A stretch of DNA of 64,000 nucleotides from positions 4,157,501 through 4,221,500 of the forward strand of contig NZ_CP063374.1 of the NCBI RefSeq assembly GCF_015160875.1, written 5' to 3'. The translations under genes and the position numbers were made by a program. Below the pieces are notes generated by a model that saw only the letters and a program-made list of their open reading frames with translations, did no database searches and was not told the DNA's origin. Source of the stretch: Streptomyces chromofuscus (GTDB taxonomy: Bacteria; Actinomycetota; Actinomycetes; Streptomycetales; Streptomycetaceae). Below, piece after piece: positions 25,752-44,556 of the stretch. The stretch's first letter is position 1. Every line of letters starts with the position of its first letter.

Positions 25752-25856
25752 GTCTTTCCCCTTCCCCAACGCCCTTGAGAAAGGGGACTTGTCACGGCGC
25801 CGGTCGGTTGTACGGCTGGTTACGTCACCTTGTACGGAGATTGTCGCGACAGGCCG

Positions 25857-27263: not shown

Positions 27264-27392
27264 GAGAAGTCCCCTTCTTCGACACACAGCCGGAGAAGGG
27301 GACCACTCAGCGCCCCGGAGGGTTGTAGATCAGCTCAGAGGGCTCAGAACACTCCCTCGACGATCTTTGGATCCTTCCTCCACGAAGAAACC

Positions 27393-27615: not shown

Positions 27616-27870
27616 TCAACGTCCCACCGTCTCCCACAGCGTGATGGCGAGTGCCGTGCAGGACGTCGCTGCCGCCAGGGACGGCAGGGGCCAGCGGGTG
27701 CGTTCCAGGGCGTCGAGGCGTTCCTCGTGGTCGGCGAGGGTCTTGTCGGTCTGGTCGGCGCGTTGCAGGAGGAGGGCCAGGTCACCGCGGGTGGTGGCGA
27801 AGCCGACGTCCACGGAGCGGCGCAGGCGTTCCAGTTCCACGGCCACTCCGCCGGCCTCCGTCGGGGTCAT
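27616..27870 (-). CDS. Small coiled-coil membrane protein, holin-like by position
   Basis: 84 aa. A helical, charged N-terminal part (LERLRRSVDVGFATTRGDLA, LADHEERLDALERTR) is followed by one C-terminal hydrophobic segment (PSLAAATSCTALAITLW). The ATG (27870) overlaps the stop of the amidase gene by ATGA. A small one-helix membrane protein just after a lysin in a tail cluster suggests a holin or spanin-like release factor. This rests on topology and position only. Confidence 0.6.
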   Translation of the reverse strand: MTPTEAGGVAVELERLRRSVDVGFATTRGDLALLLQRADQTDKTLADHEERLDALERTRWPLPSLAAATSCTALAITLWETVGR

Positions 27871-28730
27871 GACCCCGTGCCGGGCACGGCCGGGACACGC
27901 AGCCTGTCCCAACTCGCCCGGCCCGGTATGCCGTCGGCCCCGGCACCGGCGTACCCGAGCTTGCGCTGCCACGCCGCGTACGAGCGGACGTCGGCCTCGC
28001 CCCAGACCGGGCCAGGACCGACCGCGTACCGACCGCAGCCCTCGGCCACCAGGCGCTGTCCGACGGCCGTGAACAGCGCACTGCGCCGGCCCGGCACGAA
28101 GAAGGCGGCCCCGGGGAAGGGGGCGCAGGCCGCGGGCGCGGGGACGGGCCTGGTCCCCAGCCGGGCCTCGATCCGCGAGCGCATCCCGGCCATCGAGAAC
28201 GACGGGTCGATCTTGCGCCGGGTCCACTCCTTGTGGCCGATCACGCTCCCGGCCGACCAGCCGTGGGCCCGGCACAGCGCCGCAGACACCCGTTCCGCGG
28301 CGGCGAGTTGATCCGCCGGGTACGGATCGCGGCCGTCGCCGAGGTTCTCGATCTCGAAGCCGTAGAAACGGGCGTTGCCGTCGACTGCGTCCGGCCCCGG
28401 GGACGGCGGCGTGCGCTCGGCGACGACCGCGTCGAGTACGGCTGTGGAGCCGGATCCGGCGTGGTTCGTACGGCCGTATCCGACGAGATGCACCGTGCCG
28501 TCCTTGGCGATCAGCCCGACGCACAGCGGGCCGGGCAGCGCCGCGGTGCCGTCACGGCACAGGGTGAGGCTGTTGATGCCGGCGGTGTGATGCAGCATCA
28601 CGCCGTGGACCGGGCCCCAGGGGCCCTTGTGATTGCGGTTGTGGGTCTTCCAGGTTCCGTGTTCCACGAAGCGGACGCCCTCGCCGCGCAGGGCGCGGAC
28701 GAAGGCGTCTGCGGTCAGGGGTGCTGCCAT
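27867..28730 (-). CDS. N-acetylmuramoyl-L-alanine amidase (endolysin)
   Basis: 287 aa. The N-terminal amidase_2 domain (about 30-180) has the zinc ligands: His in MLHHTAG, His in SVIGHKEWTRRKIDPSF, plus the conserved Tyr/Glu region (FYGFEIENLGDG). The C-terminal part (about 205-285) resembles a peptidoglycan-binding module (WQRKLGYAGAGADGIPGRASWDRL). There is no signal peptide, as expected for a phage-type lysin that needs a holin. It cuts the amide between muramic acid and L-Ala. It belongs to the tail cluster: 10 nt after the fibre gene, overlapping the holin-like gene. Confidence 0.88.
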   Translation of the reverse strand: MAAPLTADAFVRALRGEGVRFVEHGTWKTHNRNHKGPWGPVHGVMLHHTAGINSLTLCRDGTAALPGPLCVGLIAKDGTVHLVGYGRTNHAGSGSTAVLDAVVAERTPPSPGPDAVDGNARFYGFEIENLGDGRDPYPADQLAAAERVSAALCRAHGWSAGSVIGHKEWTRRKIDPSFSMAGMRSRIEARLGTRPVPAPAACAPFPGAAFFVPGRRSALFTAVGQRLVAEGCGRYAVGPGPVWGEADVRSYAAWQRKLGYAGAGADGIPGRASWDRLRVPAVPGTGS

Positions 28731-28740
28731 GAGCGGGTCC

Positions 28741-29382
28741 TCACATGACGGGGGTGATGGTCACGAAGCGGTTGGTGAACGTGGCCGTGCTGGTGGTGAC
28801 GGCCGACTTGTAGGCGAGGGTCGCGGTGTAGGCGCCGCCCACGGTGAGGCCCGTGAGCTGGTACTGGGTGTGCGCCGAGGCGGCGCTCGTACCGGTGACG
28901 ACCGCGGCACGGGTGTCCGCCGCCGCCGAGGTGACCGTGGTGCCCAGCCGTACGTTGGCCGACACGAAACAGGACGTCGCGGCACTGCTGTTGCCCCTCG
29001 CACCGACGGAGACGAGCACGGTGCCGGACGGCGGGGCCGTGAAGGAGACGGCCGTCGGGTCCCCCGTGGAGCCGGTGAGGGTTTCGACGTAGGCGGTGGA
29101 CGTGGTGGTGCCGGTCGTGGTGTTGGCCTTGTGGACCGGGCCGGGGGACACGAGGGCCCAGAGGGTGCCCGTGTAGTAGTACAGCCGCCCCGGCGTGGTG
29201 AGCCAGGCGAGCATGCCGGCGACCGGGGCGGTGATCTTGGCGTCCCGGGTGGCGGCGTCGGCGAAGCGCAGGACGGTGCGGCCGTCCACCGCCTCGGCGA
29301 GCGACTGGATGTGGAGCGGGACGTTGGCGGCGTCGGTGGACTGCGGGTAGGGCAGATTCCCCAACGGGGTCAACAGGGACAT
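28741..29382 (-). CDS. Phage tail fibre-like protein
   Basis: 213 aa. It opens with MSLLTPLGNLPYPQSTDAANVP, a form common at the start of siphophage fibre and appendage proteins. A Ser/Thr/Ala-rich beta domain follows (TLTGSTGDPTAVSFTAPPSG; TATLAYKSAVTTSTATFTNRF). The start has AGGAGG. It lies between the Pro/Glu-rich small gene and the lysin. It is probably a structural appendage at the tail tip; its receptor is unknown. Confidence 0.7.
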   Translation of the reverse strand: MSLLTPLGNLPYPQSTDAANVPLHIQSLAEAVDGRTVLRFADAATRDAKITAPVAGMLAWLTTPGRLYYYTGTLWALVSPGPVHKANTTTGTTTSTAYVETLTGSTGDPTAVSFTAPPSGTVLVSVGARGNSSAATSCFVSANVRLGTTVTSAAADTRAAVVTGTSAASAHTQYQLTGLTVGGAYTATLAYKSAVTTSTATFTNRFVTITPVM

Positions 29383-29436
29383 GACAGGGAGACCTCCTGG
29401 CGGCGGTGCTGTACGGAGAGGGAGTGGGCGGCGGGC

Positions 29437-29688
29437 TCAGGCTTCGAAGAGCGGCGGCAGGACCACGGGTCCGGCGCTCTCATCGCCCGAGCGCACGACG
29501 GGACTGTCGATGGGCACGGGGACGCCGGCGGGCGGGTCCAGGGGCGGCTCGGCCGTGGGGCCGACGGACGGCTCAGCGAACAATCCGACGGGCGGCTCGG
29601 CGGCGGGTTCGACGAAGAGCGCGGCGGGCGATTCGGCGGAGGGCTCGACGAAGAGCTCGGCGGAGGGCTCGACGGGCGCTTCGCTCAT
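29437..29688 (-). CDS. Small acidic Pro/Ala/Glu-rich repeat protein of the tail cluster
   Basis: 83 aa made largely of degenerate repeats of the type (E/V)PSAE(x)LFVEPSAE. The start overlaps the stop of the tip protein (TGATG), so it is translated with the tail genes. No fold is recognised; it may be a flexible spacer or an assembly factor. Confidence 0.6.
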   Translation of the reverse strand: MSEAPVEPSAELFVEPSAESPAALFVEPAAEPPVGLFAEPSVGPTAEPPLDPPAGVPVPIDSPVVRSGDESAGPVVLPPLFEA

Positions 29689-32057
29689 CACGCACCTCCC
29701 GTGGCCGTCAGCAGCGCCCGGTAGTGGGGCTCGCCCGCCATCAGGTCGGCCAGCGTGGCGTACTGGGCGGTGACCTGCGCGTACAGACGTTGTGTGCCGT
29801 AGGCAGGATCGAGCGGCCCGTCCGGGGTCAGATCCGCGTCCAGCGGGACACCGTTGTACGAGGTGCCGCGCAGGGTGAGTGTCTGCTGCGGCGCGCTGCC
29901 CGCGGTGAAGGAGGTGCGCATCCCGACCACCCAGGCGAGCGTGTCGAGCTGCGCCCCCGACGTGTCCACCACCCGTACTACGTCGCCGAGTTGGATGCGG
30001 GGATCGTGCAGGACCTCGACTTCTCCCAGCACCGGCACCGGATAGCGGCCGGCGTTGAGCATGGTCTTCGACAGGGTGCTCGCGGTGGCGCTGTTCTGCA
30101 CCCAGTCGGAGGCGGGAGCCGTGAACTGCTGCTTGCCGTAGTACTGCTGGCTGGTCGTGTTCCACCAGGCCCAGTTGCGCTGCTTCGCCTCGCCCGTCGC
30201 CTTCTGAGGGACGACGCGCACGGAAGGCTTGCCGTCCGAGGTGACCGTCCACAGGCTCGTGGTCCCGGTGTTGGTGAAACGGGCGATGTACGACGGGCCT
30301 TCGCGACGGCAGCTGACCGTGACCACACCCTTGACCGCCGTACCACCGGTGGCCAGGGTGCCGAAGCGCACCCGGTGGCCGTTGTTCACCACCGAGTCGT
30401 CGACGGTGACCAGGGGGCCGATGTCGTACTCGTCCTCCGCCATGGCGTAGGGCACTTCCACCGGGATGCCCGGCTTGAGCTCCCGTATCACCGTGTCGTC
30501 CACGACGGCGCCGGCGGCGCTGCTGACACCCGACCAGTCCTTGTACGGCTGCTCGCAGTGATTGCGGCAGGCGTCGATCTCCTCGCTGATGGTGAGCGAG
30601 GCGATGTCGCGGCGGGTGGTTACGGTGAGATCGGGTTCGGTGGGCACTGTGCCGAACCGGGCCGGGCCCCTCCAGTGGAAGATGCCCTGCTCGTCGAATT
30701 CGGCCGTGGACATGCTGGCACGGGCGATCTCGGTGATCACGTCCCACTGCGAACCCGACACCTTCGGGATGTCGTACAGGGGCAGGTCGGCGTCGTCGAG
30801 CACCGCACCCTTGATCCATTTGTCCCGCTGTTCCCACTCCGCCGTGGGATAGGTCGCCGTGTCGGTCCAGACCCGGTCGGTCACCTGAAGGCACTCCACC
30901 GCCATGTCCGTGGTCATGTCGACGCGGTAGAGCTCGGCGCGGGGCTGACTCGCCGCGGGATCCGTGAAGGTGGCCATGCCGCCGACGAAGTACGAGCCGT
31001 CGGGCCCCGTCATCCGGGGCTGTACGGTCGGGAACACGCTGCTGCCGGACGACCTGGTGTCGACCATGAAGCCGAGATGCCAGGTGCCCCGCAGGGCCGC
31101 CAGCTTGCTGGAGGTCCAGTAGAAGTACGTGCTCGTGCCGTTCAGCGTGCCGGAGTGGATACTGACCTGTCCCGTCGAGATGTCGAAGACTCCGCTCACA
31201 AAGCCGTACGCCCCTCCGCTGCGGTCGAAGACGGCCTTGAGCTCGATCTTGTTGCCCCTGGTCATGGCGGTGTTGACCCAGCACTCGACCTGGAAGACAT
31301 CGCCCGGCGTGAGGAACCGTGAGCGCGGCATCCACGAGGCGTTCAGGCCGGCCGCCTTCGGCATCAGCGCCATTTCGAAGGGAGCGCCGTCACGTATCCA
31401 GTCGTAGTCCCCGACCCACGGCACGTTCTCGGGCTGGCCGTAGCTGGCGTTGACGCCGCCGTGCAAGGAGGCGTACAGCACCGTGAACGGGGCGGTGTCG
31501 TCGGTGTCGGCGAGCGGGGCGCGCGGCGGTGGACACGTGTCGATGCCGCCCTGGCGCAGCAGTTCGTCCACGCACCAGACGGCGGTGGCGACGCGCCGGC
31601 CGGTCAGAACGCCGTGGTAAGGACGCGGAAGCGAGGCGGGACCGCGCAGCCGCTCGGCACCGTCCAGGGCCTGGATGGTGACGGTGTCGCTGCCGGACGC
31701 GGCGGTACGGGAGCGTACGGTGCCGCGGAAGGCCGGCAAGGTGTGGCCGCTGACACCCGTCTTGTGCACGACGGACTGGCTGGGGCGTACGGCGTCGCCG
31801 GTGGCGCGGCCGGCCCAGGCCGAGTACAGGCGCGGGGCGGGAACCCCGTCCGCGCCCGCGAGCTGCGCCTCGAACTGCGCGGCGGCGCTGCCGCTGAACG
31901 CCCGCATGGCTTCCGGGAGATCGGTGTTGTAGGCCCGCTCCACCTTCCACGACTGCACCTGGGGGCCGAGATCCTTGCCGCCGAGCCGGGTGGAGTGGAC
32001 GGGGGTGCGCTCGGGGGCCGCCAGGGCGGCGTCGAGCACCTCGTCAGACGGCTGCAC
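29688..32057 (-). CDS. Tail tip (Tal-like) protein with a lectin-like insertion
   Basis: 789 aa, the largest protein of the cluster. Residues about 1-200 and 430-740 look like the baseplate-hub/tail-associated part of siphophages. The middle (about 215-385: TVLYASLHGGVNASYG, FQVECWVNTAM, YFYWTSSKLAALRGTWHLGFMVD) resembles a concanavalin/LamG-type carbohydrate-binding domain. The C-terminus (DPRIQLGDVVRVVDTSG; TLTLRGTSYNG) matches the closing barrel of hub proteins. No lysozyme or peptidase motif was seen. It probably closes the tail tube and recognises the target surface. It overlaps its neighbours by 14 nt and 1 nt. Confidence 0.75.
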   Translation of the reverse strand: MQPSDEVLDAALAAPERTPVHSTRLGGKDLGPQVQSWKVERAYNTDLPEAMRAFSGSAAAQFEAQLAGADGVPAPRLYSAWAGRATGDAVRPSQSVVHKTGVSGHTLPAFRGTVRSRTAASGSDTVTIQALDGAERLRGPASLPRPYHGVLTGRRVATAVWCVDELLRQGGIDTCPPPRAPLADTDDTAPFTVLYASLHGGVNASYGQPENVPWVGDYDWIRDGAPFEMALMPKAAGLNASWMPRSRFLTPGDVFQVECWVNTAMTRGNKIELKAVFDRSGGAYGFVSGVFDISTGQVSIHSGTLNGTSTYFYWTSSKLAALRGTWHLGFMVDTRSSGSSVFPTVQPRMTGPDGSYFVGGMATFTDPAASQPRAELYRVDMTTDMAVECLQVTDRVWTDTATYPTAEWEQRDKWIKGAVLDDADLPLYDIPKVSGSQWDVITEIARASMSTAEFDEQGIFHWRGPARFGTVPTEPDLTVTTRRDIASLTISEEIDACRNHCEQPYKDWSGVSSAAGAVVDDTVIRELKPGIPVEVPYAMAEDEYDIGPLVTVDDSVVNNGHRVRFGTLATGGTAVKGVVTVSCRREGPSYIARFTNTGTTSLWTVTSDGKPSVRVVPQKATGEAKQRNWAWWNTTSQQYYGKQQFTAPASDWVQNSATASTLSKTMLNAGRYPVPVLGEVEVLHDPRIQLGDVVRVVDTSGAQLDTLAWVVGMRTSFTAGSAPQQTLTLRGTSYNGVPLDADLTPDGPLDPAYGTQRLYAQVTAQYATLADLMAGEPHYRALLTATGGA

Positions 32058-32889
32058 CGTGCACCTCCACCAGATCGATGCTGATGTTCCGGTACGGCAG
32101 CCTGCTTGCCGGAGCGTCGCTGAACGAGGTGACCGCCATGGCGGGGCAGCCGTCGCCGAGGGCGAAGGCGGTCGGTGCCTCGCCGATGGTCAGGCAGGCC
32201 CCGGCGAGCCCTGTGATGCCGATCTGGCCGGGGCCGCCGATCGGGGTGACGAAGGCGGCGCCCGCGGGGGCGGTGCCGGTGACCACCGAGGCGTTGGCGG
32301 AGGTGCTGCTCAGATACGCGCCGTCCCGGTCCTTCCAGTCGAGCTGGGCGGTGCACAGGCCCGCGTTCCAGTCCGGCGGCACCATCCAGGAGACCTGCAT
32401 GCCGGGCATGACCGGCCAGCCGGCCCAGACACCGTGCCGCCACCCGATCCTGGTGGCCGGGTCCTGGCAGTCGCCGAGGACGACGTCGCCGACGAAGGGG
32501 CTGATGGTGATCGCCCCGGTCACGGTGAACCAGTGGTCCGCGCCGCCCGCGAGGCTGCTCTGGGCGGCGGCCTGGTACGGGTCGAGAAGGTTCACGGACG
32601 CCGGGTCGAGCAGGGCGACGGGGCCGTACGCGGCCTGCCAGTCGCCCTGCATTCCGGGGCCGTTGACGCGTCGCGCCAGTCGTACGAGGTGCTGGGCGTC
32701 GGCCGGTTCCAGCCACTCCCAGGAGAACTTGAGTCGACGGGTGCTGCGGGCGGGGGCGACCGTGGTGATCTGCCCCTCCAGCGACTTGAACTCGCTGACG
32801 TTCAGCTCGGCGCTGCGGTCCCAGCTCTTGGCGGCCTGGCTCATCTCACGCAGCAGACCCGGCTTGCCGATCCACAGATTCCTGGCCAT
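32044..32889 (-). CDS. Distal tail (Dit-like) protein
   Basis: 281 aa from ATG 32889 (MARNLWIGKP). It is a beta-rich protein directly between the tape measure and the tip protein, where siphophages keep the Dit hub. The first 150 residues (RRLKFSWEWLEPADAQHLVRL) look like an N-terminal Dit ring and the rest like a galectin-type domain. Assignment rests on gene order and general character. Its 3' end overlaps the tip gene by 14 nt. Confidence 0.65.
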   Translation of the reverse strand: MARNLWIGKPGLLREMSQAAKSWDRSAELNVSEFKSLEGQITTVAPARSTRRLKFSWEWLEPADAQHLVRLARRVNGPGMQGDWQAAYGPVALLDPASVNLLDPYQAAAQSSLAGGADHWFTVTGAITISPFVGDVVLGDCQDPATRIGWRHGVWAGWPVMPGMQVSWMVPPDWNAGLCTAQLDWKDRDGAYLSSTSANASVVTGTAPAGAAFVTPIGGPGQIGITGLAGACLTIGEAPTAFALGDGCPAMAVTSFSDAPASRLPYRNISIDLVEVHGAAV

Positions 32890-32896
32890 GTGTTCC

Positions 32897-33874
32897 TCAC
32901 CTCCGGGCGAGCTGGCGCTGTCCGATGAAGACGGCGCGGGCGATGGTCTGGGAGTCCACCTCGACGTGGACGGGCCGCTCGGCAAGTTTCTCGACGGCGG
33001 CGGCGAGGCGGCGCAGTCCGCCGCCAGAGCCGATCATGTGCTCCAGCTTGGAGAGCGGGATGACGGCCTCGGGTTCCCCGCCCTCACCGATGACGGCGAG
33101 TCGGCCGCCGGCGCGGGCGGGGACGATGCCGCCCTGGGCGAGGGTGGGGATGTTGGGGATCTTCGGGATGTTGATCCGGAAGTCCTTGCCGCCGATGACC
33201 GGTACCCAGCTGGGGATCTTGACGTGGACGCGGTTCAGGGCGCCGATCATGAGGTTGATGCCGCTGATGTAGGCGCGGGGCAGGGCGGTGAAGGAGTTGA
33301 TGATGCCCTTGAGGATGGACTTGATGGGCCCGGCGGAGGACCGGACGGCGCCGACGACGGCGTTGAAGGCCCACTTGGTGCCCTTGGCGAGGGCGGCGGT
33401 GACCTTGTCCATATTGACGAACTTCGCGATGAGCGGCGCGAGCAGCGTCATGATCAGCCCGAACGGGCTGGCCGCCATGGCCAGGTTGAGCCCCTTCTGA
33501 GCCAGCGAGGCCCCCTTGAGCCCCTTGCCGAGACCTCCCATGGACTTCCCGCCCCGGTCGGCGTTCTTGCCGGCCTTGCCTACGGACTTCTCTACGGCGT
33601 CGGACTGGCGCTTGACGTCGCGCAGGGCGGTCTCGGCCTTGCCGGAGGAGGATTTGAGCTTGTCGAGGGAGGACTTGAACTTGTCGGTGGAGCTCCGGGA
33701 CTTGGCCACGGCCTGGTCCGCACCGGCGGCCCGGCCACGGAGGGTGTTGAGCGCGCTCCCGCTCTTGGCGGTCGCGTCCTTGAGACTGGACACGGACGTA
33801 GCGGACGCACCGGCGCGGGAGCGCAAACGGTCCAGGCCCGCGGACGCGTTCAGCAGAGACTGTTTCAGGTTCAT
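32897..33874 (-). CDS. Short tail tape measure protein
   Basis: 325 aa. Ser/Lys/Ala-rich coiled-coil N-terminal half (residues 1-115, no aromatic residues), hydrophobic middle (about 118-200: LNLAMAASPFGLIMTLLAPLIAKFVNMDK), then the typical tail of such proteins (LAQGGIVPARAGGRLAVIGEGGEPEAVIPLSKLE). It sets tail length during assembly. Using the family rule of roughly 1.5 angstrom per residue, the tail would be near 50 nm, very short for a siphophage. ATG 33874. Confidence 0.88.
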   Translation of the reverse strand: MNLKQSLLNASAGLDRLRSRAGASATSVSSLKDATAKSGSALNTLRGRAAGADQAVAKSRSSTDKFKSSLDKLKSSSGKAETALRDVKRQSDAVEKSVGKAGKNADRGGKSMGGLGKGLKGASLAQKGLNLAMAASPFGLIMTLLAPLIAKFVNMDKVTAALAKGTKWAFNAVVGAVRSSAGPIKSILKGIINSFTALPRAYISGINLMIGALNRVHVKIPSWVPVIGGKDFRINIPKIPNIPTLAQGGIVPARAGGRLAVIGEGGEPEAVIPLSKLEHMIGSGGGLRRLAAAVEKLAERPVHVEVDSQTIARAVFIGQRQLARR

Positions 33875-33904
33875 GTGATTCCTTCCCGAGTGGGGGAAAG
33901 CGCG

Positions 33905-34555
33905 TCAGCCCAGAGCCACGGTCAGCGCGTTAACGCGGGTCTCCAGAGCGCTGACCCGGTCGCGGGCGGTCGCCAGATCTCGTGAGCTGAGACTCTCGCG
34001 CACATTGCGCCGGGTCTTGCGGTCCGTCCGTACGAGACCGGCGACCTTGCCCTCGAGCGTCTGGATGCGCCGGTTGGAGTTGGCGATCTTGTTGTGCGCG
34101 CTGGTGGTGTTGTCCTGAAGTCTGGCGGTTCCCTGTTCCAGGCGCGTCAGCCGGGTTTCCGCGGCCGCTGCCTCCTGCCGCCGCCGCTCCAGCTCATCTG
34201 CCTTGAGCCGGCGCAGGATCCCCCACTTGTTCCGCTCGATTCCCTTGCGCTCGAAGAACTTCTCGATCGCTGGCTCCAGACTGATGAGCGGGGTGAGCTC
34301 CAGCTTGGCGATGGTGAAAGCAGCGACGAAGCCCAGGATTTCGGGGTTCTTGATCGCTTCCCACAGCTTGGGCTTCGTTTCGTTCTGCACCCAGCTCTGT
34401 GTCGCCAGGACCTCTTTATCCGACTTGAGTGCGGCGGATTCAATGTCATTTTTCCGGGTAAGTCCGGCCAGGCTGGAGGAGTTGGCTTTCGTGTGCAATT
34501 CCGCCCGCAGTCGGTCGATCTCTTTTTCGAGTTCGGCGGGGGATTTATCGGCCAT
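33905..34555 (-). CDS. Coiled-coil protein inserted in the tail cluster
   Basis: 216 aa with heptad patterns at both ends (ELEKEIDRLRAELHTK; ETRLTRLEQGTARLQDNTT; RDRVSALETRVNALTVAL) and a short hydrophobic middle (ILGFVAAFTIAKLELTPL). No family recognised. Base composition is visibly poorer in GC than the neighbours. It lies where phages have the tape measure directly after the G/GT genes, so it is either an accessory insertion or an unusual structural protein. Confidence 0.6.
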   Translation of the reverse strand: MADKSPAELEKEIDRLRAELHTKANSSSLAGLTRKNDIESAALKSDKEVLATQSWVQNETKPKLWEAIKNPEILGFVAAFTIAKLELTPLISLEPAIEKFFERKGIERNKWGILRRLKADELERRRQEAAAAETRLTRLEQGTARLQDNTTSAHNKIANSNRRIQTLEGKVAGLVRTDRKTRRNVRESLSSRDLATARDRVSALETRVNALTVALG

Positions 34556-34593
34556 GAGGTGCCCTTCCGTTGCGATCTTGATATCGTCGCCCT

Positions 34594-35016
34594 GTGAACC
34601 TAGGGGTCATTGCAGCGGTCTTCGAACTCTGTGCGGGTCTGGGCGCCGTGGTTTGGGGGGTGAATCTCGGTGCGCACGGCTTGCGGGAACACCAGCGGAA
34701 AGTCACGCAAGAGGTCGAGATTCTGGATTCCGTCCAGCTGCCGACGGGTGTTTCGTACCGATTCACGCCTGTGGGCGCGGTGACAGACGGTGCGCAATCG
34801 AGCGTCACCGCCAAGGAGTACTCCGGGACCCCCCGCACATTCACCGATCCGAATTTTTCGGCCGGGGACCGGGTTCTCATCGACTTCGACCCCGGCTATC
34901 AGCTGTTCTTCTATCCCGCGGGCCGCTATCCGCGAGCCCGGCTCTGGCCGGTCGCCCTCACCGCAGTGGTGATCGGCTCGGCTTCGGCCGCGCTCGGGGG
35001 CGTCAACCTGCTGTGA
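34594..35016 (+). CDS. Two-helix membrane protein, opposite strand to the tail genes
   Basis: 140 aa from GTG 34594. Transmembrane segments at residues about 3-25 (LGVIAAVFELCAGLGAVVWGV) and 118-138 (LWPVALTAVVIGSASAALGG) flank a soluble beta domain. It resembles small DUF3592-type membrane proteins but I do not recognise it firmly. It is divergent from the coiled-coil gene by 38 bp and is the only plus-strand gene within the structural run, a typical moron arrangement. Confidence 0.6.
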   Translation: MNLGVIAAVFELCAGLGAVVWGVNLGAHGLREHQRKVTQEVEILDSVQLPTGVSYRFTPVGAVTDGAQSSVTAKEYSGTPRTFTDPNFSAGDRVLIDFDPGYQLFFYPAGRYPRARLWPVALTAVVIGSASAALGGVNLL

Positions 35017-35046
35017 CCCGGCATGCGATGGTGGAGCCGTGCCTCC

Positions 35047-35738
35047 TCATGCGAAGAACCGCTGGAGCTCCTCAGGAGACGGCAGCGAGTGTTCCGGCGT
35101 GTTCCCGGCGGTCTGGTCCGGCTCGTGGGGCTGTCCGGGGCGATGGACGGGCTCCGGGTGGTCGAGGGGGTCGCTGTCCTCATCGGCGTTGACCGTCGCG
35201 AACATCCAGTTGGCGTCCTGGAGTTGGTCGACGACATGCGCCAGGAGATAGTCCGTCACTCCCCAGTCGGCGGCCTCGCCGCTGAGTTCACGGACGAGTG
35301 CGCTGTCCCGCGGCATGTGCTGGACGAGCACCGCGAGCCGGCGCGAGGAGAGCCGGCCGCGGTGCCAGTCCAGCAGGTCGATGCCGTAGTGGCGGAGCAG
35401 GTCGGCCTCGATGGCCTCGGCGTGCTCTTCGACGAGCGCGTCGAGGCTCAGTCTTCCCCCAGGCCCAGCCCCGTCTCCTTGCCGTAGGCCTCCAGGATCG
35501 CGGCGATGTCCTGCATGGTGACCTCGTGCCGCTCGAAGAGGGCGAACTGCTGCTCGCCGAGGAGGAGTCGGAGGAGTCCGTCGACGTCGTTGTCGTCGAG
35601 GTCGCGCAGCTTGCGCGCGGTGGCGCGGCTCAGCTCGGTGGGCAGTTCGAACGAGTCGTCGTCCAGCTCGAAGGTCCAGGCGCGGCCGAGCGCTTCGAGG
35701 CGCTGGGCGCGGGCGGCGTTGACGTTGAATCCTGCCAT
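35047..35738 (-). CDS. Tail assembly chaperone, frameshifted GT form
   Basis: The downstream frame (35047-35454) has no usable start and opens exactly where the G gene ends. A -1 slip on GGGGGAA (35460-35454) joins the 95 codons of G, through its Glu, to RLSLDALVEEHAEAI and onward, giving about 230 aa. The extension (HYGIDLLDWHRGRLSSRRLAVLVQHMP; DYLLAHVVDQLQDANW) is typical of actinophage tail assembly chaperones. As in lambda gpGT, the long form made at low frequency loads the tape measure with tube protein. The direction and length of shift fit; the frequency is unknown. Confidence 0.8.
35448..35738 (-). CDS. Tail assembly chaperone, G form
   Basis: 96 aa from ATG 35738 (MAGFNVNAARAQRLEALGRAWTFEL), small and acidic. 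It sits immediately after the tail tube gene, in the lambda G position. It ends at TGA 35450-35448, six codons after the slippery region begins. It is the main product; ribosomes that slip give the GT form. Confidence 0.82.
   Translation of the reverse strand: MAGFNVNAARAQRLEALGRAWTFELDDDSFELPTELSRATARKLRDLDDNDVDGLLRLLLGEQQFALFERHEVTMQDIAAILEAYGKETGLGLGED
35454..35460 (-). other. Programmed -1 frameshift (slippery) site
   Basis: Minus-strand heptamer G GGG GAA in the frame of the G gene, three codons before its stop. GGG re-pairs perfectly after a -1 slip and GAA re-pairs with one mismatch. It fits the X XXY YYZ pattern seen at G/GT junctions of many siphophages. Confidence 0.75.
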
Positions 35739-35823
35739 GTGGGGCTCCTGTTGAATGTGTGGGGCGGGCGGGTGCCCGGCGCGCATCGCCTGCGCGCCGG
35801 GCACCCCTGGGAGGGGCGAGGGC

Positions 35824-36426
35824 TTACGCGTACGCCGTGTCCTTCATCAGCCAGGTGGCCAGCGTGGTCTTGGTCGGGTCGTCCAGACCGATCGCGGTGA
35901 AGGTGACCCCGAGGCGCACAGCGCCCGTGCGGGTGAAGGAGAGCTCCTCGGTGTCCGTCACCTGTCCGCGCGGGATGATCAGGCGGTACGCCACCGCGCC
36001 CGTGCCGACGCCGTCGGTGAAGTCGAAGGCGAGCTGACGCTCGTCGGGTGCCGGGTTGGTCAGCAGGTTGTACTGGAAGGTGCCGGCCTCCGCCGGGGTG
36101 GGGGCGGCCGGGGTGGTGCCGCCGCCCATGAAGAACGGCAGCGTGTCCTTGTTCATCTGGAGCAGCTGGAACTTCACGGTCAGGTCGCGGTCCGAGTAGA
36201 TGAACCGGGCCGGGCTGACCGACTGCCAGGTGTCGACTGGGTCGATCTTGTCCTTCTTGGCGACCTTGATGCCGTCCGTGGTGGTGAAGCCCAGCTCCGT
36301 CCATCCCGCCGGCCAGGCCGCGGAGGTGTCGGCCGGAGAGGCCGGGCCGCTGTTGGCGACGGTCTTGGCGACCAGGACGCGGCCGGATCCGGCGACGCGG
36401 ATCTCGGAACCCTTGTTTCCTGCCAT
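35824..36426 (-). CDS. Major tail tube protein
   Basis: 200 aa (MAGNKGSEIRVAGSGRVLVA; WTELGFTTTDGIKVAKKDKI; VSPARFIYSDRDLTVKFQLLQ). It has the beta-sandwich pattern and length of siphophage tail tube subunits and sits between the tail terminator and the G chaperone, the conserved place. Copies stack as hexamer rings to form the tube. No sheath gene is next to it, so the tail should be non-contractile. Confidence 0.85.
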   Translation of the reverse strand: MAGNKGSEIRVAGSGRVLVAKTVANSGPASPADTSAAWPAGWTELGFTTTDGIKVAKKDKIDPVDTWQSVSPARFIYSDRDLTVKFQLLQMNKDTLPFFMGGGTTPAAPTPAEAGTFQYNLLTNPAPDERQLAFDFTDGVGTGAVAYRLIIPRGQVTDTEELSFTRTGAVRLGVTFTAIGLDDPTKTTLATWLMKDTAYA

Positions 36427-36530
36427 GGGGATTACTCCTCAGTTCGGTGGTTCGGTGAGAGCGAGAACGAGATGGAGACGGAGATGGCGATGGCGAGACG
36501 GAGACGCCGGTAGAAGCCTCGTCAGTCGTG

Positions 36531-36932
36531 TCACGGAATGTGCAGCCACAGCCGCACCGTGGCGAGGTAGCGGTAGCCCGCCGGATGGTTGTAGTCCGGC
36601 AGCCAGCGCGGCCCGTCGGCCTCCTCGACGTCGGAGACGACGGCCCCGCCGTAGGTCGTGCCCGCCAGCTCCTGGACACAGGCGCGTGCGGCGAGTGCCA
36701 CCGCGTGGGCCGCGGTCTTGTCCGGGCCGTACGACTCCAGGTCGATCAGCGGCTGGTCGAGATGCGCGTCGTCGATCCACGCACCGCCGACGCGGGAGAC
36801 GAGCACGACGTTCTGGGTGCCGTCGAACCCGGCGGGCGGCCGGTTGTCGACCGTGGTCCCGGCCAGTTCGGTCCGGTTCTTGAGGAAGTCGACGACGAGC
36901 CGTTCAGCGTCGGGAAAGGTCAGGATGGCCAC
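36531..36932 (-). CDS. Tail terminator-like protein
   Basis: 133 aa from GTG 36932, with GAAGGGAG upstream. The pattern (FPDAERLVVDFLKNRTELAGTTV; PLIDLESYGPDKTAAHAVALAARACVQEL; YRYLATVRLWLHIP) matches the gpU/tail-terminator family that caps the tube and fixes its length. In phages the head completion and portal genes would precede it; here a terminator and regulators do. Confidence 0.78.
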   Translation of the reverse strand: MAILTFPDAERLVVDFLKNRTELAGTTVDNRPPAGFDGTQNVVLVSRVGGAWIDDAHLDQPLIDLESYGPDKTAAHAVALAARACVQELAGTTYGGAVVSDVEEADGPRWLPDYNHPAGYRYLATVRLWLHIP

Positions 36933-37138
36933 ATGGACGCTCCCTTCGGAGGGGCGGAGGACGGAGAACGAGAGACGGAGCCCGGTCGCGACGAGAGGAC
37001 CCCGGGCAGCACAAAGCGGCAGGTCCGCCGCCCGGTGTGTGGGCGCAGCTCTGCCGCTGCATTCAGTGTGACGGGTGACCCCTACGGCCGCAACTGACGG
37101 TATGTCAGGACAGGTTGTTGCACGTGGAGGGTGCACGA

Positions 37139-37173
37139 AGGGCCCCGTCGCGGTGTGTGCGACGGGGCCCTTG
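37139..37173 (-). terminator. Hairpin between the regulatory and structural parts of the tail cluster
   Basis: A 14-bp perfect stem AAGGGCCCCGTCGC / GCGACGGGGCCCTT with a 7-nt loop, between the small HTH gene (ends 37223) and the tail terminator gene (start 36932). It would stop transcription from the regulators, so the structural genes need their own promoter in 36933-37138 or anti-termination. Confidence 0.8.
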
Positions 37174-37222
37174 GGTGTACGTAGGTGGTGAAGCGGCCGT
37201 ACGGCTGCATGGCGCGGACCGG

Positions 37223-37411
37223 TCAGTCGTGGCGGCGGCTGTAGTAGGTGGTGCGCTCGGCCGCGAAGACGTCCTCGAGCCGGTAGAACTGCCGTCGCCC
37301 CTGCCGTCCCGCGGTCCGCAAGTGCCCCCGCTGCACCCACTTGCGAATCGTCGCGGCCGTGACGCCGGCCTCGGTGGCAGCCAACTCGGCGGTGATCAAA
37401 GCGGGGTTCAC
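37223..37411 (-). CDS. Small helix-turn-helix DNA-binding protein (excisionase/BldC-like)
   Basis: 62 aa from GTG 37411. A MerR-like winged helix (AATEAGVTAATIRKWVQRGHL, then QFYRLEDVFAAER) fills the whole protein. The start overlaps the previous stop by 4 nt. It is the last of three regulatory-type genes that lead the tail cluster and likely activates the tail operon. With no integrase nearby, excisionase activity is unlikely. Confidence 0.78.
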   Translation of the reverse strand: MNPALITAELAATEAGVTAATIRKWVQRGHLRTAGRQGRRQFYRLEDVFAAERTTYYSRRHD

Positions 37412-37941
37412 GAAGCGGCACCCTCCGGTTCGAGGACGTGGCGGCATACGGGATTGACGCATCGCACCTCGGCGCGCTCCGGGAACGCGCGCAGCGAGAC
37501 GGAGTCGCAGGCAGGGCAGCGGCCCGCGATCCGCACGACCTGTTCGGGGTCGCCCAGGGCGCGGGCGCAGCGGAGTGCCATCCGACGCGTCTCGGCCTCG
37601 ACGTGCACAGCAAGGTCGGCGTCGGCTGCGATCCTGTCGAGCAGCCCGGCTATGCGGCGTAACCGTTCGGGCACGGGGACGGGGCGGACCGGTCGCAGGC
37701 CGACTCGTTCGCGTACGGCTTCCTCCAACTCCACCACGCCGTCCGTGATGTCGCGGAGGGTGTCGGAGACGAAGAGGCGGACGGGCGGAGCACCCGGGGT
37801 GGAGGCGCGTGGCCCGCGGACCGGGCTCGCCGGCCGGCTGCCGTGACTCGGCGTGAGTTCCTCGATCAGTTCGGGGAAGCGGTGGATGAGGGAGTCGATC
37901 CAGCGGGCGGCGCCGCCCGGCATGTAGCCCGGAGTCGTCAT
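37408..37941 (-). CDS. Hypothetical protein with a C-terminal zinc ribbon
   Basis: 177 aa. The N-terminal part is helical and acidic (GGAARWIDSLIHRFPELIEEL; ITDGVVELEEAVRERVGL). Near the end are CPACDS and CVNPVCRHV, two CxxC/CxxxC pairs that would bind zinc. ATG 37941 overlaps the WhiB stop by 4 nt and the stop overlaps the HTH start, so all three genes are translationally coupled. Such zinc-ribbon proteins are common beside WhiB in Streptomyces phage-like loci; function unknown. Confidence 0.65.
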   Translation of the reverse strand: MTTPGYMPGGAARWIDSLIHRFPELIEELTPSHGSRPASPVRGPRASTPGAPPVRLFVSDTLRDITDGVVELEEAVRERVGLRPVRPVPVPERLRRIAGLLDRIAADADLAVHVEAETRRMALRCARALGDPEQVVRIAGRCPACDSVSLRAFPERAEVRCVNPVCRHVLEPEGAAS

Positions 37942-38366
37942 GCGGCCTTCGCCTCTCGTGCGTACACCCGGTCGGCCCGGCCGCCGTGGAGGTCGCCCCC
38001 CTCTGGGGCGAAGTCGTCGCCCGCGGCCGTGTGGCAGTCTGCGACCACCCGCCCGTTGCGCCACAGGCGCCCCGCGCACACCCCGTCGAACCATGACCGC
38101 ACCGGATCCACGACGGTCTCGCACTCCGCCACGATCGGGCACTGGTTGCAGGCGCGCAATGCCGGGGCCGCCACGGAGGGGATCCGGGTGAAGACGACGT
38201 GCTGGGGCAGGCGCCTGCAGGCGGCGCCGCGCCGCCAGTCGAGCCGTTCGTCGGAGGGCGGGAGTTGTGTGAGGTGATCGCTGAACTGCCTGATGGAGGC
38301 AGGAACGGATGGCCCATTGGGCCGTTTCTTCGACGTTTCCTGGGATGTTCTCTTTCGCTCGAGCAC
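37938..38366 (-). CDS. WhiB-family iron-sulfur regulator of the tail cluster
   Basis: Four cysteines in WhiB spacing: Cys57, Cys80, Cys83 and Cys89 when counted from the ATG at 38387 (CNQCPIVAEC holds the last three), then a WFDGVCAGRLW turn in place of GVWGG. It should carry a [4Fe-4S] cluster and bind the main sigma factor. GGGGAGGGG lies just inside the ATG, so GTG 38366 is the better start (142 aa). Actinophages often carry such WhiB proteins. It heads the minus-strand run, divergent from an XRE repressor. Confidence 0.85.
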   Translation of the reverse strand: MLERKRTSQETSKKRPNGPSVPASIRQFSDHLTQLPPSDERLDWRRGAACRRLPQHVVFTRIPSVAAPALRACNQCPIVAECETVVDPVRSWFDGVCAGRLWRNGRVVADCHTAAGDDFAPEGGDLHGGRADRVYAREAKAA

Positions 38367-38434
38367 GTGCAACCCCTCCCCAAGCATGGGAACATGAGTT
38401 CGAATGTTGCGAACGCGCGATCAGATTCGCATGA

Positions 38435-38590
38435 TGCGCGCGCGTGCGCAAGTGACTACATCGAGGGAGTGAGGTGTGCGGCCGTGCCTGCATCGCTTGG
38501 CCAACTACGCGCGTATAGCGCACCTTTGGCCGGCTCCCTCACCGATACGCGCGAGCGCGCACATCTATGGTGCGTGCGCGATCGGTACGC
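38435..38590. promoter_or_regulatory. Array of related GC-dyad operators between the XRE and WhiB genes
   Basis: Four similar dyads: TGCGCGCGCGTGCGCA (38435-38450), TACGCGCGTATAGCGCAC (38506-38523), TACGCGCGAGCGCGCAC (38546-38562) and GTGCGCGATCGGTACGC (38574-38590). The shared form is TGCGC-N4/5-GCGCGTA. They fill the intergenic region and probably bind the XRE protein, making a phage-like switch. Confidence 0.55.
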
Positions 38591-38619
38591 TTTCCCCCGC
38601 GACGAGGGGAGAGCAGGAC

Positions 38620-39108
38620 ATGAGTTCCAGCTCGTGGGCAAGTGCCCGCAATGACCAGCGCCACCCCGAGGAAGGCCCCGTGCGGCCTCGCCCTGGGGGA
38701 ACACGCGCGGACGGGCTCGACGAGTTCGCCGCCTGGGTGGAGGGCCTGATGCGAGAGCGCGGGTACGTCATCGACGGGCCGCGCGGCGGCGGCAAGTCGA
38801 AACTGGCCGATGACGCCGGGGTGCACCGGGCCGCGGTGACCCGGCTGTTGCAGCGGCAGAGCATGCCGGACCTGGAGACAATGCGGAGGCTGGCCGCCGT
38901 ACTCGACATACCGCTGCGGAACATGCTGATCCGCTCCGGGCGGCTGTCCGAAGAGGATCTTCCGCTGGAGGTGAGTCGGAGTGCGAGCGAAGGGGTACCA
39001 CCAGATCGGCTCAGCCCTGAGGAGGCTGCCCGGAGAATGGGTGTGCCGGCCGAACTGTGCGGGCTGTTCGTGAAGGTGGCGCGGCAGTTTCTGCCGGACG
39101 GCTCTTAG
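38620..39108 (+). CDS. XRE-family transcriptional regulator (repressor-like)
   Basis: 162 aa from ATG 38620 after GGGGAGAG. The HTH is at about 48-90 (KLADDAGVHRAAVTRLLQRQSMPDLETMRRLAAVLDIPL). The C-terminal part (LSPEEAARRMGVPAELCGLFVKVARQFL) is helical, with no LexA-like peptidase domain. It is divergent from WhiB across an array of dyads, so it is the likely master repressor of the tail cluster. Without a peptidase domain, induction should not be by RecA-type self-cleavage. Confidence 0.82.
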   Translation: MSSSSWASARNDQRHPEEGPVRPRPGGTRADGLDEFAAWVEGLMRERGYVIDGPRGGGKSKLADDAGVHRAAVTRLLQRQSMPDLETMRRLAAVLDIPLRNMLIRSGRLSEEDLPLEVSRSASEGVPPDRLSPEEAARRMGVPAELCGLFVKVARQFLPDGS

Positions 39109-39159
39109 GGACGGCTCTTAGGGGAGAGCCGGTACGCGGGGGTGTGAAGGAGTGCGCAC

Positions 39160-39663
39160 ATGGATGGCGAGGGGGGCGACCGGAACCGTGACGCGGAGAG
39201 AACCGGCGAGACAGGCGAGGGCTCGGACGAAGAGCGCATTGCGCACCTGCTGGGCGGGCTGCTGATCGAGCTGGGAGAGAAGGTGCGGCGGGCGGGTCCC
39301 GACGGCGTCCGCATCCTCACCGAAGACGAGATGCAGCAGACCAACCTCCGGTGGTACCGCACCGGTTGGGAGGAACATGCGCGTGCCGTCCAGACGAGCG
39401 AGGAGCACGCGGCTGCGGCCGGCCATCCCGCCGACCCGGACCCTTTGTCCGCGATGGCCAGCCTCCTGCGCTTCCCGCAGCCTCCCGTCCCGGCCGCGGC
39501 GGATCCGTACGCCCACCTGCTCCCGATCGTGGGCGCGGGCGACGCGACCGTACGCGAACTCCTGCCGCATCGCCCGAGGTTAGGGGAGCCGGTGCGGGGG
39601 CGTGAGGGGCTGTGGGGCAGGCGCCGTGGGGAGGGGGTGGAGGCGGTGGATGCGGATGAGTGA
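39160..39663 (+). CDS. Hypothetical acidic protein next to the XRE regulator
   Basis: 167 aa, GAAGGAG upstream of ATG 39160. Charged and helical (DEERIAHLLGGLLIELGEKVRRAG; ILTEDEMQQTNLRWYRTGWEEHARA), no recognised domain, basic disordered tail (RREGLWGRRRGE-like). It follows the XRE gene by 51 nt and is probably co-transcribed with it. Confidence 0.6.
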   Translation: MDGEGGDRNRDAERTGETGEGSDEERIAHLLGGLLIELGEKVRRAGPDGVRILTEDEMQQTNLRWYRTGWEEHARAVQTSEEHAAAAGHPADPDPLSAMASLLRFPQPPVPAAADPYAHLLPIVGAGDATVRELLPHRPRLGEPVRGREGLWGRRRGEGVEAVDADE

Positions 39664-42140: not shown

Positions 42141-42655
42141 GTGCTGCCCCCAGCGTCCTAGTTTGAGCGATTCCCGCAGGCTACTACCGTGCCTTGCCTC
42201 GTCGGTTGGGGTTTTGGCGCAGCTGATCACGAGCATCGTGCACTGCGGGCCGTGCTGCTACGGGGTGGCGGCGTCGGCGCACCCGTGCATTCCCTCGCGT
42301 ACAGCAGACCCCCCTGCTCTGTGCACGGCTTGTGGTCTCCCACCGCCTGGCACAGAGCCAGACCGGGGGTGCATCGAGGGTGCCGCCCCTCAGGCAAGCG
42401 CGGCAACGCTGGGCCGTCTCTGGGCCGTCCGAGGCCGCTCAACAGCGGCCGAAGATGACCAACGACGACCACCAGGCACACAAGCCCACCGTCCCTGAAC
42501 AGGGAAAACACAGGTCACCAAGATCCCCGGCAAGACCCAGGGCAAGAAGACAGGTCGTGAGTCACCCATTGAGACGGTGAGCGCAGCAGGCATCGTCAGT
42601 GGTGCCACTTAGGGTGCGTGGCATCAGCGCTGGACCGAACACCCAGGGGTGGGAC
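42141..42655. other. Intergenic stretch without recognisable genes
   Basis: 515 bp. No frame has a plausible start and protein character. The right end holds TGCCAC (42602-42607) and GTGGCA (42617-42622), an inverted repeat just before the DUF5959 gene. Confidence 0.45.
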
Positions 42656-43731: not shown

Positions 43732-44556
43732 TCAGATGACCAGCGCCACCACCCCCACCACCACGAACGCGACACCGGCCAGCAAGACAGGGCTGCCCAG
43801 CAGCAGGATGAGCACCGCGCCGAACACGAGTTGTCCCGTCGTACGGCGACCGGCCTTGGTGGTCTCGGGGTCCGCGGGGTCGTACGTGATCTCGGCCCGC
43901 TCGGCACCCCCGTCCGAGCCCGTGCGCTTACGCCGTACGCCTTGGCTGTCGACGTACGCGTAGGTGTACTGCTCGACGCCGTTGTACCAGTGGGACCGCT
44001 GCAGCTGTCCCTCCACGGTGATCCCCCGGATACGCAGCACCCAGGCCTCCCGGAACACTTGCCATCCGGCGTACACGCCCAGCCCCCCGGCAGCGATCGG
44101 GCCGGGGGCCACCGCCCAGAGGACCCCCGGGACCACTCCGGCGCCCTTCAGCATCAGCAGGACGAGTACCAGCACATACCCGCCCCCGAGGCCCCACCAG
44201 AGCAAACGGACCTTCGGTGCCGCCCGCTCCAGCGGCTCCTCGGTCACCAGCCCCGCCCCGTCCGGCCGCGGCTCGTCGGCGTCCCGTACGGGCAGTGCAC
44301 GGCGGACGGCGTGCGCGAACTCCTGCACGGCGGGGGCACTGCGGCACCTGAGGAGGTACGCCACAGGCTCGTCGCCCGTCAGTACGACGGTCAGCCGCCG
44401 GCCCTTGGGGCCGTGAACGTCGACCCGTTCTATCGCCGCCACCGGTATCCGGCGCCGCACGCCGTCCGCCTCCAGCAGCACCACCCCGTCCCGCAGCCGG
44501 ATGGAGACACGGCGTCTGCCGTGCAGTACCAGCGAGGACGTCTCTGTTGAGGTCAC
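43732..44556 (-). CDS. Membrane protein with a DUF3592-type domain
   Basis: 274 aa from GTG 44556. The soluble N-terminal half (LVLHGRRRVSIRLRDGVVLLEA; RRRIPVAAIERVDVHGPKGRRL) resembles a PH-like fold. Next come two central transmembrane helices (about 120-165), a beta domain typical of DUF3592 (SHWYNGVEQYTYAYVDSQGV; AEITYDPADPETTKAG) and two closing helices. Function unknown. Its downstream end meets the decayed region. Confidence 0.72.
   Translation of the reverse strand: MTSTETSSLVLHGRRRVSIRLRDGVVLLEADGVRRRIPVAAIERVDVHGPKGRRLTVVLTGDEPVAYLLRCRSAPAVQEFAHAVRRALPVRDADEPRPDGAGLVTEEPLERAAPKVRLLWWGLGGGYVLVLVLLMLKGAGVVPGVLWAVAPGPIAAGGLGVYAGWQVFREAWVLRIRGITVEGQLQRSHWYNGVEQYTYAYVDSQGVRRKRTGSDGGAERAEITYDPADPETTKAGRRTTGQLVFGAVLILLLGSPVLLAGVAFVVVGVVALVI

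Follow-up and report, generated by a model that had tools for sequence, protein, structure and literature searches.

A headless, non-contractile tail cluster of Streptomyces chromofuscus, probably of the F-type tailocin kind, with an exchangeable two-gene cassette

Introduction

Tailocins are generally held to kill with nothing but the tail, the producer being spared on account of its surface, and F-type pyocins carry lysis genes. In the excerpted text of a review (PMC12090994; all papers cited here are cited from excerpts), tailocins are described as headless and F-types are reported to exist in Gram-positive bacteria. The excerpts of a 2021 study state that no immunity genes are known for tailocins (PMC8319346), and those of another review that no immunity proteins against antibacterial effectors of extracellular contractile injection systems have been identified (PMC10598620). 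Here we describe a tail gene cluster at positions 27616-39663 of a 64,000-nt stretch of Streptomyces chromofuscus DNA, referred to below as the window (GCF_015160875.1, NZ_CP063374.1 positions 4,157,501-4,221,500, forward strand).

An earlier note on this DNA had proposed a headless phage tail, likely a tailocin, under the control of a WhiB-like protein. On its anatomy the cluster is probably an F-type tailocin. The explanation that we favour, with somewhat better than even confidence, is a short headless, non-contractile, F-type-tailocin-like particle of Streptomyces with a built-in effector–immunity cassette.

The tail module and the absence of head genes

Judged by its family matches, the cluster reads as a siphophage-type tail module (Table 1). 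The terminator, tube, G chaperone, tape-measure and amidase identities suggested in the earlier note all found family matches, GT being reached through a −1 slip, and its headless, non-contractile reading was likewise borne out, in that the module was matched in Pfam and PHROGs and no head, packaging, integrase or sheath family was found among the matches listed. None of the 10 module proteins has a contractile sheath family in Pfam or PHROGs, nor does one occur among the listed window matches. The 38 other window proteins gave no head, packaging or integrase description among the 25 of 30 matched PHROG families listed, many of which are undescribed. Genome-wide, the head families searched were Phage_portal, Phage_capsid and TerL_nuclease, all without a match in the window genome, and phrog_212, with a single match (locus L227, 730-3469). 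The phrog_212 protein possesses an N-terminal cyclic-nucleotide-binding-like domain, adjoins a polyprenyl-synthase-like gene and is presumably, as read from its sequence, of the encapsulin type.

The Dit-like protein is named by position and, as with the cassette coiled-coil protein (CC), gave no useful match in Pfam or PHROGs; its start is likelier at 32889 than at 32985, based on the reading of start codon and ribosome-binding site. A structural match was found for the hub; tube and tape measure are recognised by family matches, and the tube protein compared with PDB sequences gave chance-like matches only. The holin-like protein of the earlier note has a hydrophobic end and a suitable position, and phrog_5225 gives no function, so that holin is a guess.

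Table 1. Features of the cluster and one related gene, in window coordinates. The last column gives the number of the 46 other headless loci with a homologue; some of these loci end at contig ends, which affects the counts.
Feature	Coordinates	Strand	Evidence	Homologues
Gene beside XRE, one TTA codon	39160..39663	+	no Pfam match; BLAST cluster of 32 loci	19 (direct match)
XRE-type repressor, divergent from tail operon	38620..39108	+	PF01381, 5.9e-8	37
LexA (SOS)-box-like site CGAACTCATGTTCC	38389..38402	-	1 mismatch to CGAACN4GTTCG	
WhiB-like protein, first gene of operon	37938..38387	-	PF02467, 7.6e-4 (under gathering score); phrog_472	27
Zinc-ribbon protein (ZR), one TTA codon	37408..37941	-	no Pfam match	40
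Small MerR-like helix-turn-helix (HTH) protein	37223..37411	-	HTH_17, 2.2e-5; MerR_1, 5.5e-5	40
Tail terminator	36531..36932	-	phrog_123, 6.9e-21	42
Tail tube protein	35824..36426	-	PF25681 Phage_TTP_17, 2.5e-54	42
Tail chaperone G	35448..35738	-	phrog_10551 tail chaperone, 2.2e-24	44
Slippery site CTGGGGGAAG, −1 frameshift from G to GT	35453..35462	-	just before G stop	
GT extension of tail chaperone (−1 frame)	35047..35453	-	open frame, homologues	44
Cassette partner (pORF), candidate immunity protein	34594..35016	+	two predicted transmembrane segments; DUF3592-like layout	
Cassette coiled-coil protein (CC), candidate effector or lumen protein	33905..34555	-	hypervariable, swaps with partner	
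Short tape measure protein, 325 aa	32897..33874	-	phrog_15478, 2.8e-11, and other tape-measure families	44
Dit-like protein	32044..32889	-	position; homologues also in headed relatives	46
Tail hub/tip, 789 aa	29688..32057	-	fold (AlphaFold2 model, structure comparison)	
Fibre-like protein	28741..29382	-	phrog_16452, 1.1e-15; phrog_7565 minor tail, 1.8e-7	39
N-acetylmuramoyl-L-alanine amidase (endolysin)	27867..28730	-	PF01510, 2.1e-18; phrog_880 endolysin, 4.7e-63	42
Small protein, 84 aa; holin-like as a guess from position and hydrophobic end	27616..27870	-	phrog_5225, 2.4e-24, family without assigned function; C-terminal hydrophobic segment read by eye	42
Second DUF3592-like gene, 274 aa, possible orphan partner	43732..44556	-	cassette-partner HMM, 1.8e-24; no meaningful Pfam match	

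Conservation of the headless cluster

Loci were gathered from two genome sets, and 63 headless rows (the window counted) were reduced to 47, i.e., the window and 46 others, by collapsing identical hub DNA; L052 and L067-L071 were excluded as short or fragmentary. The hub was found in 24 of 392 genomes of the genus, among which G263 and G309 hold the headed type only and G161 and G190 fragments only, and in 6 of 200 genomes of the family, covering three genera. A synteny comparison of the kind proposed in the earlier note found the cluster conserved in three genera and, in the 46 loci, without a match to the head proteins of the nearest headed prophages. The usual order, kept in most of the 46 loci, places the XRE gene on one side and WhiB, ZR, HTH, terminator, tube, G, GT, cassette, tape measure, Dit, hub, fibre, amidase and small protein on the other. 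The regulators lie at the opposite end in L079 and L104 and are missing from the sequence examined in L078.

The note had also regarded head genes at related loci as decisive. The portal, protease, scaffold, capsid and adaptor of the nearest headed prophages match none of the 46 headless loci, and the same holds for their exonuclease, primase and polymerase; at least 9 kb upstream of the hub was available in 41 of the 46, and less than 9 kb in L083, L091, L092, L096 and L107. Among the upstream flank proteins (117 listed, 94 scanned), regulators and a few tail proteins were seen, and no head protein occurred among the 25 of 35 PHROG families listed. A search of 12 records with the portal family PF04860 gave no match, which says little about the headed relatives because their portal belongs to another family, phrog_104.

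The headed relatives form a third hub class (class C; L116, L126, L131 and others), with hubs 38-44% identical, and include all 13 IMG/VR matches. A capsid match was found in 24 of 26 class C rows (17 of 19 after removing duplicates), and the capsid is 75.5% identical to that of the Streptomyces phages Nesbitt and SF1. In L126, a head set of capsid, portal, protease, scaffold and adaptor was identified together with primase and polymerase. Dit and GT of these prophages match those of the headless loci, and terminator and tube do so weakly in many. In contrast to the headless clusters, they carry portal, protease, scaffold, capsid, primase and DNA polymerase, leave no space where a cassette could fit (as read in L126 and L133), and show no match to WhiB, ZR, HTH or XRE within the 22 kb examined. 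Their tape measures are 790-857 aa long (21 headed loci), whereas those of 45 headless loci, the window included, are 288-433 aa long without overlap; lengths were measured from the first possible start, and the sequence examined of L091 and L092 contains no tape measure. Headless clusters also occur in the same strain as a headed prophage whose hub is related, as in the locus pairs L118/L123 (S. aureoverticillatus), L088/L119 (S. zagrosensis) and L101/L117.

In a hub tree, from which L110 was omitted for its split hub, the 46 headless and 17 headed rows are separated by a single branch with support of 100 (0 of 500 shuffles), and no headed member falls on the headless side. The slippery G-run motif GGGGGAAG and a T part in the −1 frame are kept in 45 of 45 loci (the window and 44 others). 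Of 110 core-gene omega values from 12 pairs, 106 are below 0.5; the exceptions are Dit (0.61) and the small protein (1.11) in L087/L099, at dS of 0.03 or less, the fibre (0.64) in L093/L096 and the tape measure (0.56) between the window and L077. By a simple test, the hub is open over more than 700 aa in 45 of the 46 loci. Because the order is conserved, the frameshift site kept, omega low and the headless branch well supported, the cluster as a whole is, as far as its sequence can tell, a maintained headless tail rather than a dead remnant; single copies may be dead.

Structure of the hub

The hub found no match in Pfam or PHROGs, a hub profile against PDB sequences gave chance-like matches only, and no match was found in 50,697 phage records. 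Its fold was read from an AlphaFold2 model built from 27 alignment rows (pLDDT 86.6). The model aligns with the phi812 hub (Z 20.4, rmsd 3.5, 327 aligned) and with the hub of the S. coelicolor contractile injection system (CIS; 9gtr_q; Z 20.0, rmsd 3.5, 323 aligned), and also with T5 pb3 (Z 14.6, rmsd 3.8, 348 aligned) and the monocin tip (9j1k_L; Z 14.3, rmsd 4.3, 293 aligned). An insert at about residues 186-415 resembles carbohydrate-binding or lectin-like domains, including the carbohydrate-binding module of phage J-1 Dit (Z 12.8, rmsd 3.2, 179 aligned). By this model the tip belongs to the gp27-type baseplate hubs and carries the carbohydrate-binding-like domain as an insertion, in agreement with the tip protein of the earlier note.

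The variable cassette

Between GT and the tape measure lies a cassette, formed by CC on the operon strand and, in most loci, a partner usually on the opposite strand. This most unusual part of the cluster was overlooked in the earlier note, as were the plus-strand gene 34594-35016 and the SOS-box-like site at 38389-38402. The idea that the antisense pORF is a gene-caller artefact was rejected on its conservation and its linkage to the cluster: of 392 genomes, 4 contain pORF, and each of these also has the tail cluster. In the window, the third-position GC content of CC and pORF is 0.79 and 0.77, that of the tail genes 0.84-0.96, and that of XRE, also low, 0.80.

The partners fall into several families. 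P0 is DUF3592-like (PF12158, 5e-4, under the gathering score), with two transmembrane segments in 23 of 28 members; the window pORF constitutes P5, whose layout is similar to that of P0 (hhalign probability 72%, 3.5e-5). P3 is about 192 aa long, P4 is vWA-TerF-like (PF10138, 1.7e-14) and P6 is small. The ter genes have been linked to resistance to pore-forming colicins (PMC3064760). A CC is present in 41 loci. In 34 of these the partner is adjacent, defined as a gap of −120 to 450 bases, whereas L107 has a non-adjacent partner only; nine extra partners lie nearby. The CC was not called by script in L100, L103, L108, L111 and L076, and that of L111 was added by hand. PADLOC gave nothing on the cassette genes.

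CC and partner change together. P3 partners occur in 6 of 7 loci of CC group 2 and in 0 of 33 others (Fisher 1.8e-6, uncorrected for ancestry). Once the contributions of GT, hub and tape measure are removed, the distances of CC and P0 remain correlated in 23 of the 24 loci with a DUF3592-like partner (partial Mantel 0.66, reached in 0 of 2000 permutations). A smaller set of 12 loci, tested against a larger number of controls, agrees (partial r 0.63, 0 of 2000); the value for P0 against GT is 0.11 (156 of 2000). The CC is also exchanged between otherwise similar clusters. In L083/L036 the CCs share 22% identity vs. 98% for the hub, with the tape measure at 84% and other genes at 93-100%; the corresponding CC values are 23% in L090/L089 (hub 94%) and 31% in L042/L040 (tube 99%, hub 89%).

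Partners may also outlive such exchanges. Where partners at least 60% alike are both adjacent, the CCs are 52-91% alike (7 of 7 pairs), whereas in pairs with one extra copy they are 0-9% alike (3 of 3; Fisher 0.008 against the adjacent pairs). For example, the extra partner of L036 is 95% identical to the partner of L085; the CC of L036 is of the window type and the two CCs are unmatched. In L139, a displaced pORF lies beside a 71-aa CC remnant. Co-varying, jointly swapped adjacent genes and orphan partner genes left after swaps were thus both found, and in sequence the cassette looks like an effector–immunity pair, with toxicity and protection as predicted functions.

Three side observations concern these genes. 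In L100 (S. inusitatus), a second Dit-hub pair is placed between GT and tape measure, and next to it comes a P3-like protein in antisense orientation. Genomes with no hub contain weak homologues of P3, six in all (L161-L166; 23-28%). That of L161 adjoins the same kind of Fe-S protein gene as the L139 orphan array, perhaps a shared hotspot.

The CC extends to a second class of tails. A CC HMM matched 30 of 392 genomes, 16 with the hub and 14 without; another 8 of the 24 genomes with the hub escaped it, although a CC is present in some. In the eight no-hub loci inspected out of 14, G, GT and tape measure are present in 8 of 8 and terminator and tube in 7 of 8, together with another Dit and tip. 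Because all eight lie in tail clusters, the CC follows these tails. In 20 loci of this second class, of 10-20 kb, the five class C head proteins were unmatched; other head types are excluded by reading in L215 and L229 only.

Regulatory genes and SOS-box-like sites

The gene leading the operon encodes a WhiB-like protein, and we take the product of 37408..37941 to be a zinc-ribbon protein from its CPAC/CVNPVC pattern. Control by WhiB, as read in the earlier note, is a possibility rather than a finding: WhiB is recognisable in only 27 of 46 relatives, and the visible element is the LexA-box-like site CGAACTCATGTTCC. A WhiB-only model was dropped in favour of WhiB plus the LexA box. The site directly precedes the first possible WhiB start, and the real start may be further in. 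Since six such sites were seen in the whole window vs. 3.3 expected, it is not significant by itself. Across loci, a LexA-like site (at most one mismatch to CGAACN4GTTCG) lies in the gap between XRE and operon in 19 of 38 readable loci, the window included, vs. a mean of 1.1 and a maximum of 6 in random control stretches of the same loci (300 rounds). It is present in 13 of 17 window-like loci and in 6 of 21 less related (B-type) loci.

The LexA motif of S. venezuelae is tCGAAC-N4-GNNCGa (PMC9380542). In the same study, TCGAACACCGGCGC is the SOS site of vnz_21525, induced 526-fold with mitomycin C, and TCGAACACAAGGCC that of vnz_21545/21550, induced 190-fold; vnz_21525-21550 is called a predicted, LexA-regulated prophage cluster. 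Among 226 loci, exact copies of both sites occur only in L215, a locus of the second tail class. One is located 171-184 bp before the Dit-like gene, which fits the published distance of −174; the other separates the CC-like gene from a gene that diverges from it, and its published distances of −123 and −182 could not be matched to open reading frame starts. Very probably, then, a relative of the system has measured LexA binding and strong induction, and by analogy we infer that the window cluster may behave like it.

In L215, L216, L219, L182 and L183 of the second tail class, LexA-like boxes were also noticed in pairs, at a distance of a few hundred bases before the CC gene or before the place where it would be expected. 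A further observation concerns TTA codons, which occur in ZR (4 of 40), WhiB (5 of 27) and the XRE-side gene (3 of 19), and in none of the 209 XRE, HTH, tube, tape-measure and hub genes counted. In sequence, TTA codons in regulator-side genes hint at bldA control.

Proposed mechanism and alternative explanations

In the mechanism that we propose, DNA damage would lift LexA (and the XRE repressor), and the WhiB, zinc-ribbon and HTH proteins would help to turn on the operon. The tail would assemble to a length set by a tape measure of about 350 residues, which at 0.15 nm per residue would give about 50 nm for the window type. Its release would fall to the amidase together with the small protein, and a related bacterium would be bound by the fibre and by the hub, which carries the carbohydrate-binding-like domain. 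The CC would travel in the tail with the tape measure and act on the target envelope or membrane, while the partner (a membrane DUF3592-like protein, or a soluble vWA-TerF-like or P3 protein) would protect the producer. The anatomical part of the earlier tailocin reading (headless, non-contractile, tailocin-like) holds, and killing and particle release remain inferred. The wider proposal, which we rate as an even chance, is that genus-wide SOS-induced headless siphophage-type tailocins deliver an exchangeable CC effector packed next to the tape measure, that every version has an immunity gene of its own, in most cases divergently encoded, and that strains collect orphan immunity genes against rivals' versions. 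If true, tailocins whose effector can be exchanged and whose antidote is encoded alongside would change the picture of killing by the tail alone, and would represent a modular protein weapon in the principal genus of antibiotic producers. Induction has already been published for one such cluster, apparently in S. venezuelae, which makes the idea directly testable.

Several observations weigh against the mechanism proposed. The LexA box is missing in 15 of 21 B-type and 4 of 17 window-like loci, and some clusters look broken, such as L099 without tube and terminator, or the genomes G079, G311 and G369, where the hub match is split over two frames. In the cassette, 6 of 41 CC loci have no recognised partner, and some extra partners look damaged; the displaced pORF of L139 (G024) is interrupted by a TGA near its start, and the first transmembrane segment is missing from the part that stays open. 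The CC is without a fold or catalytic signature. Its structure model is all-helical with low confidence (pTM 0.31), and because this model is poor and a simple transmembrane threshold is reached by only 9 of 40 CCs, a membrane-active CC is weakly founded. P3 and P4 partners have no predicted transmembrane segment and look soluble, which makes one shared protection mechanism unlikely. The CC also co-varies modestly with the tape measure (0.34, 0 of 2000), as expected of a structural partner.

The last point leads to the most serious alternative, which we consider unlikely though clearly worth retaining, namely that a headless tail particle is made in which the role of the CC is purely structural, in the lumen or as a partner of the tape measure, while the genes on the antisense strand have nothing to do with it and are passengers or regulators. 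The helical nature of the CC, its place directly before the tape measure, its co-variation with the latter and the loci lacking a partner would all fit. However, the CC is replaced wholesale (18-31% identity) between clusters far more alike elsewhere, and the partner changes along with it; extra partners persist where the matching CC is gone, pORF is found only in cluster-bearing genomes, and one partner type is vWA-TerF-like, a kinship made suggestive by the colicin resistance linked to ter genes (PMC3064760). A rather improbable alternative is that the tail acts in or on the producer, e.g., in developmental lysis, as proposed for cytoplasmic Streptomyces CIS, instead of against rivals. The WhiB-led operon and the restriction of TTA codons to regulator-side genes among those counted point in this direction, and the excerpts of a review describe the Streptomyces CIS as cytosolic and as killing its producer (PMC10598620). 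The cluster nevertheless has its own amidase, a target-binding-like hub insert, a fibre and a protective-looking partner gene, and its box is SOS-like, not a known developmental one.

Two further explanations concern the missing head. That the cluster keeps tail parts in stock for a gene transfer agent or a helper phage, with heads encoded at other places in the genome, is very improbable: S. aureoverticillatus and S. zagrosensis do hold a headless cluster and a headed relative side by side, but the window genome has no portal, capsid or terminase profile match and only an encapsulin-like phrog_212 protein, the tape measure has half the length of that in headed relatives, and a terminator, regulators and an amidase are present in most of the headless clusters themselves. 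A decaying prophage remnant without function, the least credible of all and already contradicted, would account for the lack of head, integrase and replication genes, for the fragmentary or broken loci (G190, G161, L052, L099) and for the split hubs. It is opposed by the order kept in three genera and in most of the 46 loci, of which 42 have terminator and tube and 44 the chaperones and tape measure, by the low omega values, by the frameshift sites and by the headless branch without a headed member. An effector-bearing, F-type-tailocin-like particle is the reading that we prefer.

Genomic setting

In the window, aspS and metG are separated by 26.7 kb that include the cluster. Four relatives were compared, and in two of them the same genes lie side by side, with about 0.7 and 0.17 kb in between. 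In G006, no window match was found in the 20 kb beyond metG, and the G001 sequence is too short to judge. Neither aspS nor metG was matched in the 20-kb stretches around other hubs; a related cluster in G015, apparently S. venezuelae, lies between genes read as rpoC and rpsL. Within the aspS-metG island, FG-GAP repeat proteins at 24336-27287 and 46771-49881 flank the cluster. A possible defence gene beside it, 40977-42236 on the minus strand, matches Hypoth_Ymh (PF09509, 5.7e-26) and, in PADLOC, PD-Lambda-3_B (5.5e-11) and Aga_HEPN (1.5e-8). The G chaperone is present in 33 of 199 genomes of the genus (one weak, 33% identity), corresponding to about 1 in 6 sampled Streptomyces species.

Comparison with known systems

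No report of this Streptomyces tail cluster was found among the literature matches listed, a search whose scope leaves out preprints and most subscription papers. The F-type pyocins of Pseudomonas, which are lambda-like, share with it a headless, non-contractile, chromosomal tail module (PMC12090994), a likeness of anatomy rather than of protein comparison; the window differs in its Streptomyces regulators, LexA-like box and CC/partner cassette, the last set against tailocin immunity genes that the excerpted study treats as unknown (PMC8319346). The monocins, F-type bacteriocins of Listeria, are likewise reported from a Gram-positive host with a non-contractile tail and have a similar hub fold (9j1k_L), whereas the hub profile gave no PDB sequence match to the monocin tip. 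The Streptomyces CIS (SLP / CIS-Sc) is a tail-like particle of the same genus, again with a similar hub fold (9gtr_q), but it is contractile with a sheath, for which the window module proteins have no match.

The S. venezuelae cluster vnz_21525-21550 is a further close parallel. L215 has both of its SOS boxes together with homologues of XRE, WhiB, ZR, HTH, terminator, tube, G/GT and tape measure, and a CC-like gene before the tape measure; in contrast to the window, it has another Dit and hub and two tape-measure-like genes. Headless non-contractile tails are already known from F-type pyocins and monocins. What appears to be new is the Streptomyces variant, and the effector–immunity reading of its cassette is the bold part.

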